Below are positions 7,723 through 22,807 of a stretch of DNA of 52,704 nucleotides, piece by piece. Location: positions 1 through 52,704 of the forward strand of contig JAFUGH010000011.1 of NCBI GenBank assembly GCA_017469465.1, read 5' to 3'. Every line of letters starts with the position of its first letter. Within the stretch, counting starts at the first letter, position 1. Origin of the DNA: Clostridia bacterium. GTDB taxonomy: Bacteria; Bacillota; Clostridia; TANB77; UBA1234. Position numbers and translations under genes: made by a program. A model generated the notes under the pieces. The model was not told the origin of the DNA and made no database searches. It saw only the letters and a program-made list of their open reading frames with translations.

Positions 7723-9603
7723 ATGGATGAGAATATTATCATACCATTTTCTGAAGTGACCACTATGATAGAAAATGCTAATAAAGAAAATGGAAATACT
7801 TCTCATAATCCAGAAGCGATTAATTTTACAATTGCAGAAAAAGTATTAAAAGAGTATGCACTGAAAAATATTTTTCAATCTGATATATCAAAAGCACATC
7901 TTTTGGGTGAAATTCACATACATGATTTAGGAATGATAGATAGATTTTATTGTTCTGGTCATTCACCAGAATATGTCAAAAAGAATGGCTTAAAAAATAT
8001 TCCTACTATTTCTATAAATTCGAATCCGGCAAAAAATGCATATGTGTTAGCAAGACATATTTGTTGTTTTACTGAATTTCTTCAAACGCAGTTTGCTGGT
8101 GCTATTGGTTGGGAAGCAATTAATGTTTTTTTTGCTCCTTTTTTATTGAATATGAAATATCAAGAGATTAAGCAGGTTGCACAATCACTAATATTTGATT
8201 TAGCTCAGCTGACAGGAGGAAGAGGCGGTCAAGTTGCTTTTTCAGATTTCAATGTCTATATTTCTATTCCAGAACATTATAAGAAAGTGTATGCAATGGG
8301 ACCACAAGGAAAATATATGGTTATAGATAGCACAAAGAAAATATATAGGCTTGATACACAGGATGAAGCAAAAGAATTTGCAGAAAAAAATCATTTTAAG
8401 ATTTTAACTTATTCAGACTTTGAACAAGAATCTCGTTTATTTGCACAAGCAATTTTAGAAATTGTTGGAGAGGGAGATGCGAATAGGATGCCAATCCCAT
8501 TCCCAAAAATTAATTTGCATATCAATGAAGAAAGTTTTAAAGATGGTAGAGCTAGTCAATTGCTAATGAAAGCATGTGAAACTTCAAGTAAAAGTGGTTG
8601 CCCATATTTTATATTTGATAGAAATGCTTATTCAGTTTCTCAATGCTGTAGATTGAAGATAGATTTTACAGATGACGATAAGAAATTAATTAATACTCCT
8701 GAAGAATTAAGATTTGTTGGTGGTCAAAATGTATCGATAAACTTGCCAAATATTCCTTTAAAAGTCGGAAAAAATATGGATGACTTCTATCTAGAACTTG
8801 GAAAAAGAATGGAAATGGCGGCAAGAGCTCATATTCAAAGAAGAGATTATGTATGGAAAATAGCTAATATAAAAAATTCTCCAATAAGTTTTTATACGAA
8901 AGGTATGGATTTAAAACCGTATGTTAGATTAAAAAATATTTCTTATTTAATTGGTATTGTTGGACTTAATGAGTGCGTATATAACTTAATGGGAAAAGAG
9001 CTTCATGAATCAAATGAAGCGTATTTTTTAGGAATGGAAATAATATCTTTTATGTATCAAAAAACGAAGGAACTTTCTAAAAAATATGATATCGCAATAA
9101 AACTAGAGGAAACTCCTGCAGAAAGCACAGCAGGTAGATTTGCAAAATTAGACATACAACATTATGGTAAGAAAGCTTATCACAAACAAAATCAATTTGG
9201 CGTATACTATACTAATTCAGTTCATTTTGCTGCAGATAGTGATGTAGATTATATTACTCGAATTCAAAAACAATCAAAGTTTCATAGTTTAATTGAAGCG
9301 GGAAGCATGATTCATATATGGACTGGAAATAATGCACCTAGTCCAAACGCAATTTTTAAATTACTCGAAACAACATGGTATCAAACGAAATGTGTACAAT
9401 GGGTATTATCGCCAGAGTACACACTTTGTCATGATTGCAATATGAGGAGTAACGGACTTTTGGAAAAATGCCCAAACTGCGGAAGTAGAAATTTAAGAGG
9501 AGTTACAAGAATTACAGGTTACTATGTTTTTATTGATAAATTTAATCATTCAAAGCGTGCAGAACTTTCGGATAGAAGGCGAGAAAATATAGACATGAAC
9601 TGA
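7723..9603 (+). CDS. nrdD: Class III (anaerobic) ribonucleotide reductase, NrdD2-like
   Basis: Oxygen-sensitive glycyl-radical enzyme that reduces ribonucleoside triphosphates. At 626 aa it is shorter than the second NrdD in this window and lacks the N-terminal ATP-cone. Seen directly: IHDLGMID near the N-terminus, CFTEFLQTQFAGA, and a C-terminal zinc ribbon CHDC..CPNCGS followed by RITGYY, whose glycine is the expected radical site. It is followed by a small CxxC redoxin and a radical-SAM activase, the arrangement known for redoxin-dependent rather than formate-dependent class III enzymes. GGAGGTG precedes ATG 7723. Confidence 0.9.
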   Translation: MDENIIIPFSEVTTMIENANKENGNTSHNPEAINFTIAEKVLKEYALKNIFQSDISKAHLLGEIHIHDLGMIDRFYCSGHSPEYVKKNGLKNIPTISINSNPAKNAYVLARHICCFTEFLQTQFAGAIGWEAINVFFAPFLLNMKYQEIKQVAQSLIFDLAQLTGGRGGQVAFSDFNVYISIPEHYKKVYAMGPQGKYMVIDSTKKIYRLDTQDEAKEFAEKNHFKILTYSDFEQESRLFAQAILEIVGEGDANRMPIPFPKINLHINEESFKDGRASQLLMKACETSSKSGCPYFIFDRNAYSVSQCCRLKIDFTDDDKKLINTPEELRFVGGQNVSINLPNIPLKVGKNMDDFYLELGKRMEMAARAHIQRRDYVWKIANIKNSPISFYTKGMDLKPYVRLKNISYLIGIVGLNECVYNLMGKELHESNEAYFLGMEIISFMYQKTKELSKKYDIAIKLEETPAESTAGRFAKLDIQHYGKKAYHKQNQFGVYYTNSVHFAADSDVDYITRIQKQSKFHSLIEAGSMIHIWTGNNAPSPNAIFKLLETTWYQTKCVQWVLSPEYTLCHDCNMRSNGLLEKCPNCGSRNLRGVTRITGYYVFIDKFNHSKRAELSDRRRENIDMN

Positions 9604-11735: not shown

Positions 11736-13151
11736 ATGGATGTAAGGGTAAAAGATATCATAAAAATATGTAATGGGACATTAATTTGCGGAAACGAAGA
11801 AACAATTTGTGAGAACTTTTCGAAAGACACTAGAACAATACAAAAAAATGATACTTATGTTGGGATAAAAGGTGAGAGATTTGACGGTAATTGTTTTTAT
11901 GAAGATGCGTTAGAAAAAGGGGCAAAAGTTTGCATCTTACAAAACATGGAGATATTAGACGAAGTGAAAAAAAAATATGAAGATAGATGCATTATCTTAG
12001 TAGAAGATACAATAAAAGCAATTCAACAAATAGCATCTTATAAAAGAGATTTATACAATATTCCAGTAGTTGCTGTAACAGGGAGCGCAGGAAAAACAAG
12101 TACGAAAGATATGATAGCTAGTGTAGTTGGGACTTCTTATAATGTTTTAAAAACAGCAGGCAATTTAAATAATCATATAGGAGTACCAATGACAATCTTG
12201 GGGTTGAAAAAACATAATGCATTAGTAGTAGAAATGGGTATGAATAATTTAGGAGAAATCAGTGTACTTTCAAAAATTGCCAAACCTAATATTGCAGTGA
12301 TTACCAATGTGGGAACGGCACATATTGGAAATTTGGGTTCTAGGGAGAATATTTTGAAAGCAAAATTGGAAATAGTAGAAGGCTTAAAAGAGGATGGTAT
12401 TTTAATTATTAATAATGATAATGACTTATTACATGAATGGCAAAAGGACCAAAAAGGGAATTTAAAAATAGAAACTTATGGGATAGAAAATGACAGTAAC
12501 TTAACTGCTTTGAACATACAATTAGAAGATAATTCTAGTAATTTTTATGTACATTTTAAGCAAAATGAAAATAATCGAATGGATGATGAAAATATATTGG
12601 TTCCAGTAGGAGGACTACATTTTATATATAATGCATTATGCGCAATTGCGGTTGGTAAAATTCTTGGAATTTCAATGGAGAAAATAAAAATAGGAATTGC
12701 TAATTTTGAATTAAGTAAAAATAGAATGGAAATTGAAAAAACAAATGGTGTGACTATTGTAAATGATTGCTATAATGCTAATTTTGATTCTATGAAGGCG
12801 GCTTTGGAAAGTGTTTCAAAAATGGAAGGCAAAAGAAGAATTGCAATACTTGGTGACATGTTAGAACTAGGAGAGTTTTCAAAGGAATTACATAATAAAG
12901 TTGGGCTAGAAGTAGTGAAAAATAATATTGACATATTAGTTACAGTTGGAAAAGAAGCAGAAAACATTGCTAATATTGCTTGTGAAAAGGGAATGAATGA
13001 AACATATACCTTAAAAAGCAATGAAGAAGCAATTAATCTGATGAGAAGCATTGTAAAAAATGGAGACATAATATTAATAAAAGCTTCTAATGGTATGAAA
13101 TTTATAGAAATTGTGAATTCACTAAAAGAAATGGTTCTTAAAAAACTATGA
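11736..13151 (+). CDS. murF: UDP-N-acetylmuramoyl-tripeptide--D-Ala-D-Ala ligase MurF
   Basis: Cytoplasmic Mur ligase that adds D-Ala-D-Ala to the peptidoglycan precursor. The 471-aa protein has an N-terminal substrate domain with FSKDTRTIQKNDTYVGIKG, the ATP-binding loop VTGSAGKTSTKD (near residue 115), NAGNLNNHIGVP-type substrate contacts, and the C-terminal motif VNDCYNANFDSM with ILGDMLELGE. GGGAG precedes the ATG. It is native in composition and contains no in-frame CGG. Confidence 0.93.
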   Translation: MDVRVKDIIKICNGTLICGNEETICENFSKDTRTIQKNDTYVGIKGERFDGNCFYEDALEKGAKVCILQNMEILDEVKKKYEDRCIILVEDTIKAIQQIASYKRDLYNIPVVAVTGSAGKTSTKDMIASVVGTSYNVLKTAGNLNNHIGVPMTILGLKKHNALVVEMGMNNLGEISVLSKIAKPNIAVITNVGTAHIGNLGSRENILKAKLEIVEGLKEDGILIINNDNDLLHEWQKDQKGNLKIETYGIENDSNLTALNIQLEDNSSNFYVHFKQNENNRMDDENILVPVGGLHFIYNALCAIAVGKILGISMEKIKIGIANFELSKNRMEIEKTNGVTIVNDCYNANFDSMKAALESVSKMEGKRRIAILGDMLELGEFSKELHNKVGLEVVKNNIDILVTVGKEAENIANIACEKGMNETYTLKSNEEAINLMRSIVKNGDIILIKASNGMKFIEIVNSLKEMVLKKL

Positions 13152-13181
13152 TAGGTTTTGTCGAAAAAAGATACAATTTGT

Positions 13182-13210
13182 TTTACAAATTACATAATTC
13201 GTGATATAAT
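13182..13210 (+). promoter_or_regulatory. Promoter of the Clp/M41 fusion gene
   Basis: TTTACA at 13182-13187 and TATAAT at 13205-13210, 17-bp spacing. A 65-bp leader ends in AGGAGGGAG. Confidence 0.75.
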
Positions 13211-13274
13211 GCAGCCGTGTTGAATAACACTTTTGAAATAAACCATAACTATAATTAGTTAGGAGGGAGTAAGT

Positions 13275-15263
13275 ATGATGTTTAAAGTTTGGATATCTGA
13301 GAAAACAATCAATATGCTGGATAGATGCAAGGGTAAGCTTGATTATTGGCATTTTGATGCTATTAATTCACCTATTTTGCTCGATCAGATTGCCTATAGC
13401 GATTGTTATTTGGAACCATATCTTTTGGCAGAGGGTATGGATGAGGAAGATGATATTCATGATTATACATCAGACTTCTTAACATTGAGAAGATCAGCTA
13501 ACAAAGTGCAAGACAAATCGAAAGAAAGTTCAAAAGATGCTGCTGATAGTAATGAAAACGAAGAGGACAATCCTACTCAATTGTATAGAACGGAAGCATT
13601 TTCAGATGTTACTTTTGATGATGAAAAAGGAAATAAACATTATTATACCGTGGCTGAAGAAGTATATAGTATCATTACGCAAGCTGTAGAAATTTGCATA
13701 GAAAAGAAGTTTCCTTGTATAGAACCTATTCACATACTCGCTGCAATGTTTGATGTTGAAGATATTACTTTGCAAGATTTGTTCTCAGAACTTGGGATGA
13801 ACTTTCAACTGGCAAGAAAATACTTTACGAGTGATGAAGTATATAAGTTGGAAGTTATTCCTTATTCTCTTTCGGGGTTTATGTCATGTTTGAATGAGAA
13901 AGTAGATGTCAGAAAACCTTGCGAAATTCTGATGCGTGATAAAGAAGTGGAGCAGATTTGGAATATTTCGCTGAAGAAAAATAAACGGAATACGGTTATT
14001 GTTGGCGAAGCTGGTGTTGGTAAATCTGCATTGATTGAAAAAATGACGTATGAAATCGTGAAGGGGACTTGCCCAGAAAGATTTAAGAATTTCTCTGTTA
14101 TTAGTTTGGATGTCAATAGTTTAATTGCTGGTACTACGTATAGAGGACAGGCAGAAGAAAGAATTAAGCAGTTAATTAAGTTCCTGGAAGAACGAGATAA
14201 CGTCATTTTGTTTATTGATGAAGTACACACCATTTTGGGAGCAGGTTCATGCTTCGAAGGTGAAATGGACTTGTCGAATGCACTAAAGCCCATTTTGGCT
14301 CGTGGTGATACCATCGTGATTGGTGCTACTACTGACGAGGAATATGAACGATACTTTGCTAGAGATGCAGCACTCTCCCGCCGCTTTGAAAAAGTGGTGG
14401 TAGAAGAACCTGTTTCTAGCAAGGTATATCCTATGATTAAAAACAAAATACGTGTTCTTTCTGAATTTCACCATGTCAAAATTACAAAAGCAATGGTGGA
14501 ATACATTATTATGATTGCACATTGCTTTGCTTTTGAAAAAAAGAATCCTGATAAAACACTAGACTTGATTGATAGGAGCATGGTCGTTGCATATCGAAAG
14601 GGAAAAGACCAAGTTGATAAGGAATGTGTACTTGCCAACTTTGGTATATTCTTTGAACTCTTTGAAGGAATGGAAGAAGATTCTCGTAAAGAAGTTGCTT
14701 ATCATGAAGCAGGGCACTATCTTGTTGGCAAATTATCTGATAAGCTAGTACAATATCAAATGCTTGCAGTTTCCATTATGCCGGCAGAAGATTACTTGGG
14801 AGTTACTTGCTATGAATTTCGTAAAGATAAGGTACCTTTTACCAATAAAGATTATTACATTGATGAAATTGCATTTTCTCTTGGTGGAAGGGTTGCTGAA
14901 AAACTATTCAGAAAAGTATATACTAGTGGAGCATGTGCTGATTTGAATAGTGCTACTCGCAGAGCCTTCCAAGTTGTTTCACAATTTGGTATGACTAGTA
15001 AAGAAAATGGTGAACGAAATGTAATTTTCTTGAACTCTGAAAATTATCCAATGTTTTCAGAAAAGTCCATAAATATGGTAAATGAAGAAGTACAAGCTTT
15101 GGTAGATATTGCTTACAAAAGGGCAGAACACATTATTGAAGAGCACAAAGAGTTGCTTGAAATTATTGTGACCAAACTTCTTGGAAAGCAAATTATGAGC
15201 GAAGCGGAACTTGATAGAGTTTGTCAGCAATATTTTAAGAAAAAAAATAGACAAAAGAAGTAA
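13275..15263 (+). CDS. Clp-N / AAA+ / M41 peptidase fusion protein
   Basis: A 662-aa ATP-dependent protease-like protein with an unusual domain order. Residues ~1-110 are acidic and unrecognised. Residues ~120-190 resemble a Clp N-domain (CIEPIHILAAMF). A ClpB/ClpC D1-type AAA+ module follows, with Walker A GEAGVGKS (near 244), Walker B VILFIDEVHT and arginine finger ALSRRFE. The C-terminal third is an FtsH-type M41 zinc peptidase: HEAGH near residue 480 and SGACADLNSATRRAF, whose Asp fits the third zinc ligand. No transmembrane helix is visible, unlike FtsH, and Clp ATPases normally recruit ClpP instead. Codon use is foreign, with one CGG read as Arg (13986-13988, KNKRNTV). ATG 13275 or 13278 starts it after AGGAGGGAG. 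Confidence 0.85.
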   Translation: MMFKVWISEKTINMLDRCKGKLDYWHFDAINSPILLDQIAYSDCYLEPYLLAEGMDEEDDIHDYTSDFLTLRRSANKVQDKSKESSKDAADSNENEEDNPTQLYRTEAFSDVTFDDEKGNKHYYTVAEEVYSIITQAVEICIEKKFPCIEPIHILAAMFDVEDITLQDLFSELGMNFQLARKYFTSDEVYKLEVIPYSLSGFMSCLNEKVDVRKPCEILMRDKEVEQIWNISLKKNKRNTVIVGEAGVGKSALIEKMTYEIVKGTCPERFKNFSVISLDVNSLIAGTTYRGQAEERIKQLIKFLEERDNVILFIDEVHTILGAGSCFEGEMDLSNALKPILARGDTIVIGATTDEEYERYFARDAALSRRFEKVVVEEPVSSKVYPMIKNKIRVLSEFHHVKITKAMVEYIIMIAHCFAFEKKNPDKTLDLIDRSMVVAYRKGKDQVDKECVLANFGIFFELFEGMEEDSRKEVAYHEAGHYLVGKLSDKLVQYQMLAVSIMPAEDYLGVTCYEFRKDKVPFTNKDYYIDEIAFSLGGRVAEKLFRKVYTSGACADLNSATRRAFQVVSQFGMTSKENGERNVIFLNSENYPMFSEKSINMVNEEVQALVDIAYKRAEHIIEEHKELLEIIVTKLLGKQIMSEAELDRVCQQYFKKKNRQKK

Positions 15264-15270
15264 AATGAAA

Positions 15271-15307
15271 ACATCCTCACAATTTTATTGTGAGGGTGTT
15301 TTTTTAA
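15271..15307 (+). terminator. Terminator of the Clp/M41 gene
   Basis: ACATCCTCAC pairs with GTGAGGGTGT around AATTTTATT, followed by seven T. Confidence 0.9.
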
Positions 15308-19029: not shown

Positions 19030-20598
19030 ATGCAGGTAGCTAAACGTGATGGAAGAATAATGGAATTTAACAAACAACGTATTGTTGATGCCATAGTGAA
19101 AGCAATGATACAAACTAGTGATGGAGTAGATAGGGAATTAGCAGAAAAAATTGCAAGTAGTATCGAAAAACAACTAGAAACAAGGGATGAAGTAAGTGTG
19201 TATGAAATACAAGATTTAGTTGAAAAAAAACTTATGGTATCAAGTAGAAAAGAAGTTGCAACAGCGTACATTACATATAGATATACAAGAGATGTTGCTA
19301 GAAAGTCTAAAACAAAAAATATTTTTTTAGACATCATTACTTCTAAAACAAGTCCTTTAAAAAGTGGAGATGGCTCATATAAAAATATTAATGATATGAT
19401 GAATACTTTTGCAGCTGAGTCAATTAAGCCATATGTCGATACAATTCTACTTTCAAAGGATGTAAAAAATGCTGAGAATAATGGATACATCGATATTAAA
19501 AACAAAAGATATTATCCAACAAAGGCAATTAAAACGTTTGAAATTCCTCTTATTCATGAAACAGAAATTTTAAAAAATTGTAAGAATATTGAAAGCGCAG
19601 TTTGTAATATTATGTGTTTGGTAAGTAGACTTAAAGTAGAAGTATGTGAAAGTCTTGTTTTACCGCCGATTGACATTACATTAAAACCGTTTGTAAAAAA
19701 AACATATAAAGAAGAACAAAAGAACATCAGTGAAATTTTAGTGGTAAGCGATTTTAAATCAAATTCTAAGTATGATTCATTGATAGAAAAAAATGTTGTA
19801 AATAGAGTATACAATTCTTTAAAATTTTTGATTCAAGGTCTTTCATCATCATGTGAAAGTGACAAATTTAACTATATTACTTTTGGAACTGATTCATCTC
19901 ATGAGGCAAGGATGATTACGAGAGAAATGTTAGAATTAAGTTCTCAAAAGACAAAGTTAAAAGAGATTTGTGAAGAAACAAATAGTGCTAATTCAGATTT
20001 GTATGAACTTGCATTTAAAGTATCTTTAAAAAACCGTTTACTTACGTTATCTGAAACAAAGTTAAATTACTCTTATGGTAGAGGGATTGTAAATGCAATT
20101 ACGATTAATCTACCTAAAATAGCTTATGAAGCTTTTTACCATACAAAAGATACAAATATTGGGTTCGACCCTGATTTAGAAACTAATGAAGATAAAATAA
20201 TAGAAATAAATTTTTTAAGTAGTTTAAAGAAAAGTGTTTTTGTTGCATTTAATGGTTTAGTTGAAAGACTTGAGTTTCAATCTACTGCGACTAAAGGTCA
20301 ATTTCCAACATTAATGTCAGGACTGTGGATTGACAGTGAAAAACTAAATGTAGAAGATACAATAGGAAATGTATTGAAAAAAGGCACTTTAGAATTGGAA
20401 TTATATGGATTGGATAGAGTTACTGAAATATTGAAAAAAAATAAAAATCCAAACCAAATAAAAGAATTTAAAGATGAAATAATTCAAGAAATTAATAATA
20501 TGTTAAATGAATTTTCAAAAGAGTATAAATTAAACTTTACTCTAAAAGAAACAAATGATAATGAAAAATTTGGGGGAGAAAATTATGAAAATAGTTAA
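19030..20598 (+). CDS. ATP-cone protein related to NrdD but lacking radical machinery
   Basis: A 522-aa protein. Residues ~1-95 form an ATP-cone (VAKRDGRIMEFNKQRIVDAI..YITYRYTRD), the nucleotide-sensing domain of ribonucleotide reductases, closely similar to the N-terminus of the next gene. The remainder is weakly NrdD-like (for example INLPKIAYEAFYH) but has no zinc ribbon and no glycyl-radical motif, so it cannot be a reductase on its own. It overlaps the following nrdD start by 14 nt, indicating translational coupling. It may be an allosteric or structural partner of the reductase, or a degenerate duplicate; I do not know a named family. Confidence 0.7.
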   Translation: MQVAKRDGRIMEFNKQRIVDAIVKAMIQTSDGVDRELAEKIASSIEKQLETRDEVSVYEIQDLVEKKLMVSSRKEVATAYITYRYTRDVARKSKTKNIFLDIITSKTSPLKSGDGSYKNINDMMNTFAAESIKPYVDTILLSKDVKNAENNGYIDIKNKRYYPTKAIKTFEIPLIHETEILKNCKNIESAVCNIMCLVSRLKVEVCESLVLPPIDITLKPFVKKTYKEEQKNISEILVVSDFKSNSKYDSLIEKNVVNRVYNSLKFLIQGLSSSCESDKFNYITFGTDSSHEARMITREMLELSSQKTKLKEICEETNSANSDLYELAFKVSLKNRLLTLSETKLNYSYGRGIVNAITINLPKIAYEAFYHTKDTNIGFDPDLETNEDKIIEINFLSSLKKSVFVAFNGLVERLEFQSTATKGQFPTLMSGLWIDSEKLNVEDTIGNVLKKGTLELELYGLDRVTEILKKNKNPNQIKEFKDEIIQEINNMLNEFSKEYKLNFTLKETNDNEKFGGENYENS

Positions 20599-22807
20599 AA
20601 GAGACGGGACAATAGTACCATATGATCCACAAAAAATTAAAAATGCCATTGGAAAAGCAAATAATGAGGTATCCAAAAAAGAAAGGGCTACTGAAGAACA
20701 AATAAATCAGATTATTGAGTTTATAGAAGAAAAAAATAAATCAAGAATATTGGTTGAAGATATACAAGACATTATTGAACAAAAACTAATGGAATTTGGA
20801 AATTATCAATTGGCAAAACAATATATTACATATCGTTATACTAGAGCATTAGTTAGAAAAGCAAATACAACAGATAAGTCAATTAAAGAATTAATTGATG
20901 GCGAAAGTGAGTATTGGAATACAGAAAATTCAAATAAGAATTCGAAAGTCGTAACTACGCAAAGAGATTATATTGCTGGTATTACAAGTACAGATATCAC
21001 AAGAAGGTTTTTACTACCAGAAGATATTGTTAAAGCACATGACGAAGGAATTATTCATTTTCATGATGCCGATTATTTTGCTCAAAATGCACTTCATAAC
21101 TGTGATTTAATTAACTTAGAAGATATGCTTCAAAATGGTACCAATATTAATGGTGTTATGATAGAAAAACCACATAAGTTTTTAACGGCGATGACAATTG
21201 CTACACAAATTATTACTGCTGTTTCTTCAAGTCAGTATGGTGGAGCAACTGTAACTATGACTCACTTAGCACCATTTGTTAGAGATAGTTATAATTTCTA
21301 TCTAAAAAGATATAAGGATAGAAACTTATCTGAATTTGAATGTGAGAAGTTTGCTAAAGAGGATTTAGCTAAAGAAATTACGGATGGTGTACAAACATTC
21401 CAATATCAAATTAATTCTATGACAACAACAAATGGACAAGCGCCATTCTTAAGTGTAAGTTTTTATTTAGGTGAGACAGAGGAATATAAAGCTGAACTTG
21501 CTATGATTATTGAAGAATTCTTAAAACAAAGAATTCAAGGAATGAAAAACGAAAAAGGTGTATATATTACACCAGCATTTCCTAAATTATTATACGTACT
21601 AGAGGAAGACAATATTCATGAAGATAGTAAATATTGGTATTTAACAGAACTTGCTGCTAAATGTACAGCAAAGAGAATGGTACCTGACTATATTTCAGAA
21701 AAAATGATGTTGGAATTAAAGAAAAATGAAAAAGGCGAAGGAGATTGTTACCCTTGCATGGGATGTCGCTCATTCTTAACACCAGATAGAACGATGAGCT
21801 TAGGAAATATTGCAAAAGCTAAAAACTATGTGGAAGGAAAAGGAAAATATTATGGCAGATTCAATCAAGGTGTTGTTACGATTAACTTAGTAGATGTTGC
21901 TTTATCTTCTAAAAAAGATATGGATAAGTTTTGGAAAATATTTGATGAGAGACTTGATTTATGTCATAGAGCATTGCAATTAAGACATGAAAGACTAAGT
22001 CATGCAACAAGTGACGTTGCACCAATTTTATGGCAACATGGAGCTTTAGCAAGATTAGAAAAAGGGGAATCAATTCATGAATTACTACATCATGGATATT
22101 CAACTATTTCACTTGGTTACGCAGGTCTATATGAATGTGTAAAATATATGACAGGAAACAGCCATACGGATGAAGCAGAAGGAGAAGAGTTTGGATTAAA
22201 AGTAATGCAAAGAATGAATGATAAATGTAAGGAATGGAAACTAGCAGAAGACATTGACTACAGTGTTTATGGAACTCCAATTGAATCTACTACATATAAG
22301 TTTGCAAAATGTTTGCAAGAAAGATTCGGAAAAATTGAAGGAATTACTGATAGAGGATATATTACAAATTCGTATCATATACCTGTATTTGAAGAAATTG
22401 ATGCTTTCACGAAACTTGGAATTGAAAGTAGATTCCAAAAACTAAGTCCAGGTGGTGCTATTTCTTATGTGGAAACACCAAACTTACAAAATAATATTGA
22501 TGCGGTACTTCAAATTATTCAATATATTTATGATAACATCATGTATGCAGAACTAAACACCAAGTCTGACTATTGTCAAGTTTGCGGATTTGACGGTGAG
22601 ATTTTAATAGATGACGACTTAGAATGGTATTGCCCAAATTGTGGTAATAGAGATCATGATAAACTAAATGTTGCAAGGAGAACTTGCGGATACATTGGAA
22701 GCAATTTTTGGAATAAAGGAAGAACACAAGAAATAAAAGAAAGAGTATTACATGTAGATAATAAAGACTATGTTGAAAAACCAAAAGAGCAAGAGGTGGC
22801 AAGCTAA
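20585..22807 (+). CDS. nrdD: Anaerobic ribonucleoside-triphosphate reductase NrdD
   Basis: Full-length class III reductase (740 aa). ATG 20585 (MKIVKRDG) is used because GGGGGAG lies 6 nt upstream, inside the end of the previous gene. The ATP-cone covers residues ~1-95. The body contains HFHDADYFAQNALHNCDL and GQAPFLSVSF. The C-terminus has the zinc ribbon CQVCGFDG..CPNCGN and the radical loop RTCGYIGSNFWNKGRTQEI, whose glycine carries the radical. It is followed by nrdG with overlapping stop and start (TAATG). Regulation by the divergent Crp/Fnr protein is plausible. Confidence 0.96.
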   Translation: MKIVKRDGTIVPYDPQKIKNAIGKANNEVSKKERATEEQINQIIEFIEEKNKSRILVEDIQDIIEQKLMEFGNYQLAKQYITYRYTRALVRKANTTDKSIKELIDGESEYWNTENSNKNSKVVTTQRDYIAGITSTDITRRFLLPEDIVKAHDEGIIHFHDADYFAQNALHNCDLINLEDMLQNGTNINGVMIEKPHKFLTAMTIATQIITAVSSSQYGGATVTMTHLAPFVRDSYNFYLKRYKDRNLSEFECEKFAKEDLAKEITDGVQTFQYQINSMTTTNGQAPFLSVSFYLGETEEYKAELAMIIEEFLKQRIQGMKNEKGVYITPAFPKLLYVLEEDNIHEDSKYWYLTELAAKCTAKRMVPDYISEKMMLELKKNEKGEGDCYPCMGCRSFLTPDRTMSLGNIAKAKNYVEGKGKYYGRFNQGVVTINLVDVALSSKKDMDKFWKIFDERLDLCHRALQLRHERLSHATSDVAPILWQHGALARLEKGESIHELLHHGYSTISLGYAGLYECVKYMTGNSHTDEAEGEEFGLKVMQRMNDKCKEWKLAEDIDYSVYGTPIESTTYKFAKCLQERFGKIEGITDRGYITNSYHIPVFEEIDAFTKLGIESRFQKLSPGGAISYVETPNLQNNIDAVLQIIQYIYDNIMYAELNTKSDYCQVCGFDGEILIDDDLEWYCPNCGNRDHDKLNVARRTCGYIGSNFWNKGRTQEIKERVLHVDNKDYVEKPKEQEVAS

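Follow-up and report, generated by a model that had tools for sequence, protein, structure and literature searches.

A Clp D1-type AAA+ module fused to an M41 peptidase in uncultured gut Clostridia

The textbook AAA+ proteases of bacteria are fixed pairs of motor and peptidase, namely ClpA, ClpC or ClpX with ClpP, HslUV, Lon and FtsH. An open reading frame in a 52,704-nt contig of a Clostridia bacterium (TANB77; UBA1234; JAFUGH010000011.1, assembly GCA_017469465.1), hereafter the window, raises the question of whether a Clp motor and an FtsH-type peptidase have been combined in one chain and, if so, what kind of protease results. The original prediction described a Clp-like N-domain and a ClpC-type AAA+ module followed by an M41 peptidase, encoded by a gene foreign in codon use.

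The gene and its product

The gene is a single unbroken reading frame with an ATG start. The gene and its signals are:

13182..13210 (+): sigma-70-type promoter-like site, TTTACA-17-TATAAT with a TG extension, 11/12 matches
13261..13267 (+): ribosome-binding site (Shine-Dalgarno) AGGAGGG, 7 nt 5' of the ATG, read from the sequence
13275..15263 (+): Clp-N / D1 AAA+ / M41 fusion gene, 662 aa, from domain and profile searches
15267..15303 (+): intrinsic terminator hairpin with T-tract, -21.5 kcal/mol, z -7.3

The gene is probably transcribed alone, since the promoter-like site sits in the 123-base gap 3' of murF and a strong hairpin with a T-tract follows at the 3' side; promoter-like sites in the region are about as numerous as the shuffle mean, so the site itself is suggestive only. 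Upstream lies murF and downstream are genes for membrane proteins; no conserved partner in an operon was found for the gene. Among the 38 window genes, this one shows the largest deviation in codon use (excess divergence 0.088, z 11.8). This deviation and the patchy occurrence of the gene (two of the six genomes of the window's genus) speak for the foreign origin first proposed, but no donor was identified. Elsewhere in the window (7723-9603 and 19030-22807), translations alone point to two or three copies of anaerobic ribonucleotide-reductase-like genes, accompanied by radical SAM activase-like ORFs.

The product divides into the following parts:

13275..13859 (+): residues 1-195, N-domain; predicted Clp-N fold made of two four-helix repeats, with an acidic linker and beta-hairpin inserted
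13860..14609 (+): Clp D1-type AAA+ module and small domain, residues 196-445, from profiles, tree and model
14004..14027 (+): Walker A GEAGVGKS, residues 244-251, from motif reading and family alignment
14139..14147 (+): pore loop 1 YRG, residues 289-291, from motif reading
14202..14222 (+): Walker B VILFIDE, residues 310-316, from motif reading and family alignment
14379..14384 (+): arginine-finger pair R369-R370, from motif reading and family alignment
14670..15221 (+): Peptidase M41 domain, residues 466-649, from Pfam (E 1.9e-35) and tree
14703..14717 (+): zinc site HEAGH, residues 477-481; H477, E478 and H481 invariant in 47/47 family members
14940..14942 (+): third zinc ligand Asp556, invariant in 47/47

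Profile searches split the protein in two. Pfam places AAA at residues 242-375, upstream of Peptidase_M41. The NCBIfam models matching over the first AAA+ domain (198-437) are ClpA (E 3.7e-67), ClpB (E 1.2e-64), ClpV and ClpK/G, whereas the FtsH models match the peptidase part alone (best: FtsH_fam, 465-645). Searches against solved structures mostly gave the same division between a Clp motor and an FtsH peptidase. Sensor 1 is present as Thr352, and the HEAGH motif and third-ligand Asp had been correctly read as intact. No second AAA+ module (D2) was found in the window protein by domain search, motifs or model, M41 following directly after D1. A coiled-coil middle domain is likewise absent, the small domain of D1 being continuous in both sequence and model.

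Pfam Clp_N did not match the window protein, even at E 1. The Clp-like N-domain (about residues 5-195) is nevertheless recognizable in the predicted fold. Residues 1-198, predicted alone, reached a pLDDT of 82.9, and all of the 50 top matches in the fold search were N-domains of ClpC, ClpA, ClpB, Hsp104, ClpV, ClpT and relatives (best match: Z 13.7, 134/142 residues, 2.9 A). The window protein contains no transmembrane anchor (maximum 19-residue hydropathy 1.28 overall and 0.73 in the N-terminal part), and a clear N-terminal membrane anchor is absent, by hydropathy, from every member of the family.

A full-length AlphaFold2 model of the monomer was built from a 40-sequence alignment (mean pLDDT 85.7, pTM 0.69). 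Its residues 193-460 fit the D1 of ClpB/ClpC (2.4-2.7 A over about 260 residues, Z 28). Since residues 186-655 fit the full AAA+M41 unit of FtsH (425 residues, 4.4 A, Z 22.9), the predicted arrangement of D1 and M41 resembles FtsH in how the peptidase sits on the motor. In the model, the protein looks FtsH-like from the motor down and ClpC-like from the motor up.

Origin, selection and distribution

In phylogenies, the D1 modules of the family join Clp D1 with an SH-aLRT support of 100, and a long branch separates them from the AAA domains of FtsH. Motor profile and tree thus agree with the prediction of an unfoldase other than that of FtsH, and grouping of the AAA+ module with FtsH was not observed. 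An FtsH with a divergent motor is rejected by the NCBIfam profiles and the D1 tree. The label "ClpC-type" holds as far as the Clp/Hsp100 D1 type is concerned but not for ClpC itself, as in the tree the family lies outside the whole set of sampled Clp D1 domains; the window protein also lacks the middle domain and D2 of ClpC.

The M41 domains were compared with those of FtsH from seven phyla, of FtsH from the same genomes and of other odd M41 proteins. Those of the family form one clade (support 98-99, in trees not independently rooted), which was not seen nested among FtsH M41 domains. The M41 trees lend no support to a recent origin of this part from the host's own FtsH. As the M41 domains form one clade and the D1 modules join Clp D1, a single fusion event best explains the trees.

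Closely related pairs gave dN/dS values of about 0.05-0.11, indicating strong purifying selection, D1 included. Between the window protein and its nearest relative (G003), identity is 36% in the N-domain, 80% in D1 and 71% in M41. The N-domain is the fastest-evolving part of the fusion, as would be expected of a part that selects substrates. The four protease residues (H477, E478, H481 and D556) are invariant in all 47 proteins. The ATPase signature (Walker A K and S/T, Walker B DE, second Arg) is intact in 41/47 and damaged in six, through four changes on the tree, a number that weak branches could lower. The six ATPase-decayed members with an intact zinc site are those at L251, L276, L277, L278, L279 and L280. 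The aromatic pore residue is kept in 39/47 and missing in eight, among them some whose ATPase is otherwise intact (L268, the second copy at L263 and L274). With the zinc residues universal, against ATPase damage in six members and absence of the pore aromatic in eight, the peptidase appears to be the most firmly constrained part.

Within the window's order, the fusion was found in 43 of the 385 genomes (47 proteins, three families). In one genome (G576), two diverged copies lie about 3 kb apart (L263:6851-8761 and 11923-13914, +). A search of 391 genomes of the class, some 370 of which represent other orders, yielded no full-length fusion outside the window's order; in this search, full-length members scored 670-995 bits and ordinary Clp proteins at most 279 bits, their matches ending before the peptidase. 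Among 299 genomes of the phylum, the window's own was the sole source of a full-length match, and one other match covered the Clp part alone. A scan of named genomes retrieved at least seven records of the family, all Clostridia assembled from samples of sheep, buffalo and rabbit; most were contigs already counted, and the other matches listed were mainly FtsH. As far as searched, the fusion is confined to one bacterial order, and the family is patchily distributed among uncultured gut Clostridia.

No phage or plasmid record covers 80% of the fusion protein, and HExxH occurred in the same ORF as a viral D1 in none of 80 viral loci. A phage or plasmid origin was rejected on these grounds. Membership of a known defence family was also rejected, PADLOC giving just a weak P-loop match. 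Searches of the literature, mostly excluding subscription papers, returned papers on FtsH, plant FtsHi and Clp, and no description of a Clp-M41 fusion was found. Rather than common and characterised, the fusion is limited, in the genomes searched, to 43 genomes of a single order and, in the literature searched, undescribed.

Proposed function and alternatives

We consider it likely that the protein is an accessory, soluble, single-chain protease, dependent on ATP and zinc, in which a hexameric Clp D1 ring threads substrates into an M41 chamber; both the activity and the hexamer are inferred. The Clp-N-like domain would bind a specific adaptor or substrate. A ring of D1 modules, with its YRG pore loops and ATP, would unfold and thread the chain, which the chamber of C-terminal M41 domains would receive and the HEAGH/Asp zinc site would cut. 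In such a machine, the D1 ring would stand in for the AAA ring and membrane anchor of FtsH, and the fused M41 for D2 plus ClpP. The window genome also encodes FtsH, ClpP and ClpC-like proteins, so the fusion would be an additional protease.

Anchor-stripped mitochondrial M41 enzymes form no hexamers and do not hydrolyse ATP, and loss of the anchor abolishes the activity of mitochondrial M41 proteases, except where an artificial hexamer-forming element is supplied (PMC5095350). Because these anchorless enzymes fail to hexamerise (PMC5095350), the Clp modules of the fusion would need to drive assembly, a role in which the N-domain and D1 together would replace the anchor.

ATP-driven unfolding would not be essential to every member, since six have lost ATPase residues. 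With the zinc residues kept in all 47, this loss is what one would expect of a regulated metalloprotease of limited cleavage, in which D1 is a nucleotide switch or scaffold and M41 cuts one or a few partners with no processive threading; the absence of the pore aromatic from eight members, including some with an otherwise intact ATPase, points the same way. However, the ATPase signature in 41/47 and the pore aromatic in 39/47 have been retained, neither of which a mere switch would need, and D1 is under strong purifying selection in close pairs. We therefore regard limited cleavage as unlikely, though it is the strongest competitor of a threading protease.

The window's genus holds other unusual M41 proteins. 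One of 1,805 aa (L300:2848-8262, +, G005) carries three AAA+ modules with AAA_lid_6 before M41, and another of 1,523 aa (L301:2827-7395, +, G003) carries two. Their zinc motif is HETGH or HEVGH, and their AAA_lid_6 modules presumably belong to the CbbX/SpoVK group. Given these giant tandem-AAA+ proteins besides the Clp D1 fusion, M41 in this genus has been joined to at least two foreign motors. Genome G005 also encodes a 488-aa AAA+M41 protein without a membrane-anchor region (L303:6520-7983, -), apparently a soluble FtsH-like paralogue. A broader reading would make M41 a portable module in the order, re-coupled to unrelated motors into a new class of soluble one-chain proteases, some of them working with a beta-CASP RNase as an accessory module that removes RNA and protein; we hold this generalization to be quite improbable.

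Only one gene turns up near the fusion again and again. It encodes a beta-CASP metallo-beta-lactamase protein of about 470 aa, lies within six genes of the fusion in 12/46 loci and is directly adjacent in seven, against about 0.04 adjacencies expected by chance. The adjacencies occur in several orientations and contexts and are scattered over the tree (five changes); in G003, the two genes are divergently transcribed neighbours. The protein is present in 28/43 fusion-bearing genomes and 107/342 others (Fisher p 2.8e-5, ignoring relatedness), and in the window's genus two genomes have both genes while the other four have neither. The protein most resembles Cas14 of type VII CRISPR and archaeal aCPSF1, but scores far below the cut-offs of both. 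A beta-CASP gene is located at L241:5088-6494 (+), with an orthologue at L304:8237-9664 (+). In the window genome, the orthologue (68% identity) adjoins an Abi-type (AbiP2-type) reverse transcriptase, a type IIG restriction enzyme and DolAB homologues.

Recurrence, shared presence and these surroundings are consistent with a partnership of the fusion and a beta-CASP RNase in an accessory module removing RNA and protein, for defence, ribosome rescue or RNA decay. However, 15 of the 43 fusion-bearing genomes lack beta-CASP, many genomes carry it without the fusion, and the two coincide no more often than background within genus g10 (family f5; 10/13 versus 11/15). In the window genome itself, the two genes are on different contigs. 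Apart from beta-CASP, the genes next to the fusion mostly have housekeeping functions and vary from one genome to another, and a scan of 128 unrelated neighbours revealed no excess of defence genes. A defence-island location of the fusion gene was rejected on account of these housekeeping neighbours. We consider the partnership very doubtful, and regard the association as a starting point rather than an established function.

An assembly chimera, frameshift or decaying pseudogene, suggested by the odd architecture and nothing else, is refuted by recurrence (47 proteins of one clade in 43 separately assembled genomes) and selection (dN/dS about 0.05-0.1, with ORF and signals intact), and we give it practically no credence.

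Comparison with known systems

A natural Clp D1-M41 fusion tests whether an unfoldase and a peptidase without shared evolution can be wired into one machine. If it is the threading protease proposed above, D1 by itself would prove sufficient to drive degradation. The six ATPase-decayed members with a conserved zinc site are a natural experiment on the extent to which the protease needs unfolding.

Like ClpC, ClpA and ClpB (Hsp100, class I), the fusion has a Clp-N fold, as predicted, and a D1 with a YRG pore loop and RR fingers. In ClpA and ClpC, the loop that docks ClpP is carried by D2. The fusion has no middle domain, no D2 and no such docking loop, and its peptidase is fused instead of recruited. 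D1-only phage Clp proteins (458-502 aa; viral contigs L021-L023 and L029), which form their own clade, share with it an N-domain and a single D1, but have neither D2 nor peptidase.

With FtsH and the i-AAA and m-AAA proteases, the fusion shares a C-terminal M41 domain with HEAGH and the third Asp, a single AAA+ module, the one-chain organization and, in the prediction, a close AAA-to-M41 arrangement. It differs in that its motor is of the Clp D1 type, its M41 clade is apart from the FtsH sampled, and Clp-N occupies the place of the transmembrane part, with no anchor. hexYME1L is an engineered soluble i-AAA protease that retains its native FtsH-type motor and has a designed coiled coil in place of the anchor (PMC5095350). 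Both would be soluble M41 AAA+ proteases with membrane-free assembly, which for the fusion is predicted; hexYME1L is artificial, whereas the fusion is natural and has had its motor replaced too (PMC5095350). For in vitro studies, which have so far needed engineered enzymes (PMC5095350), the fusion thus offers an M41 protease predicted to be soluble by nature. As one defining feature tested for each of FtsH and Clp was found to be lacking, the fusion is fully neither of the two, and it probably works like both.
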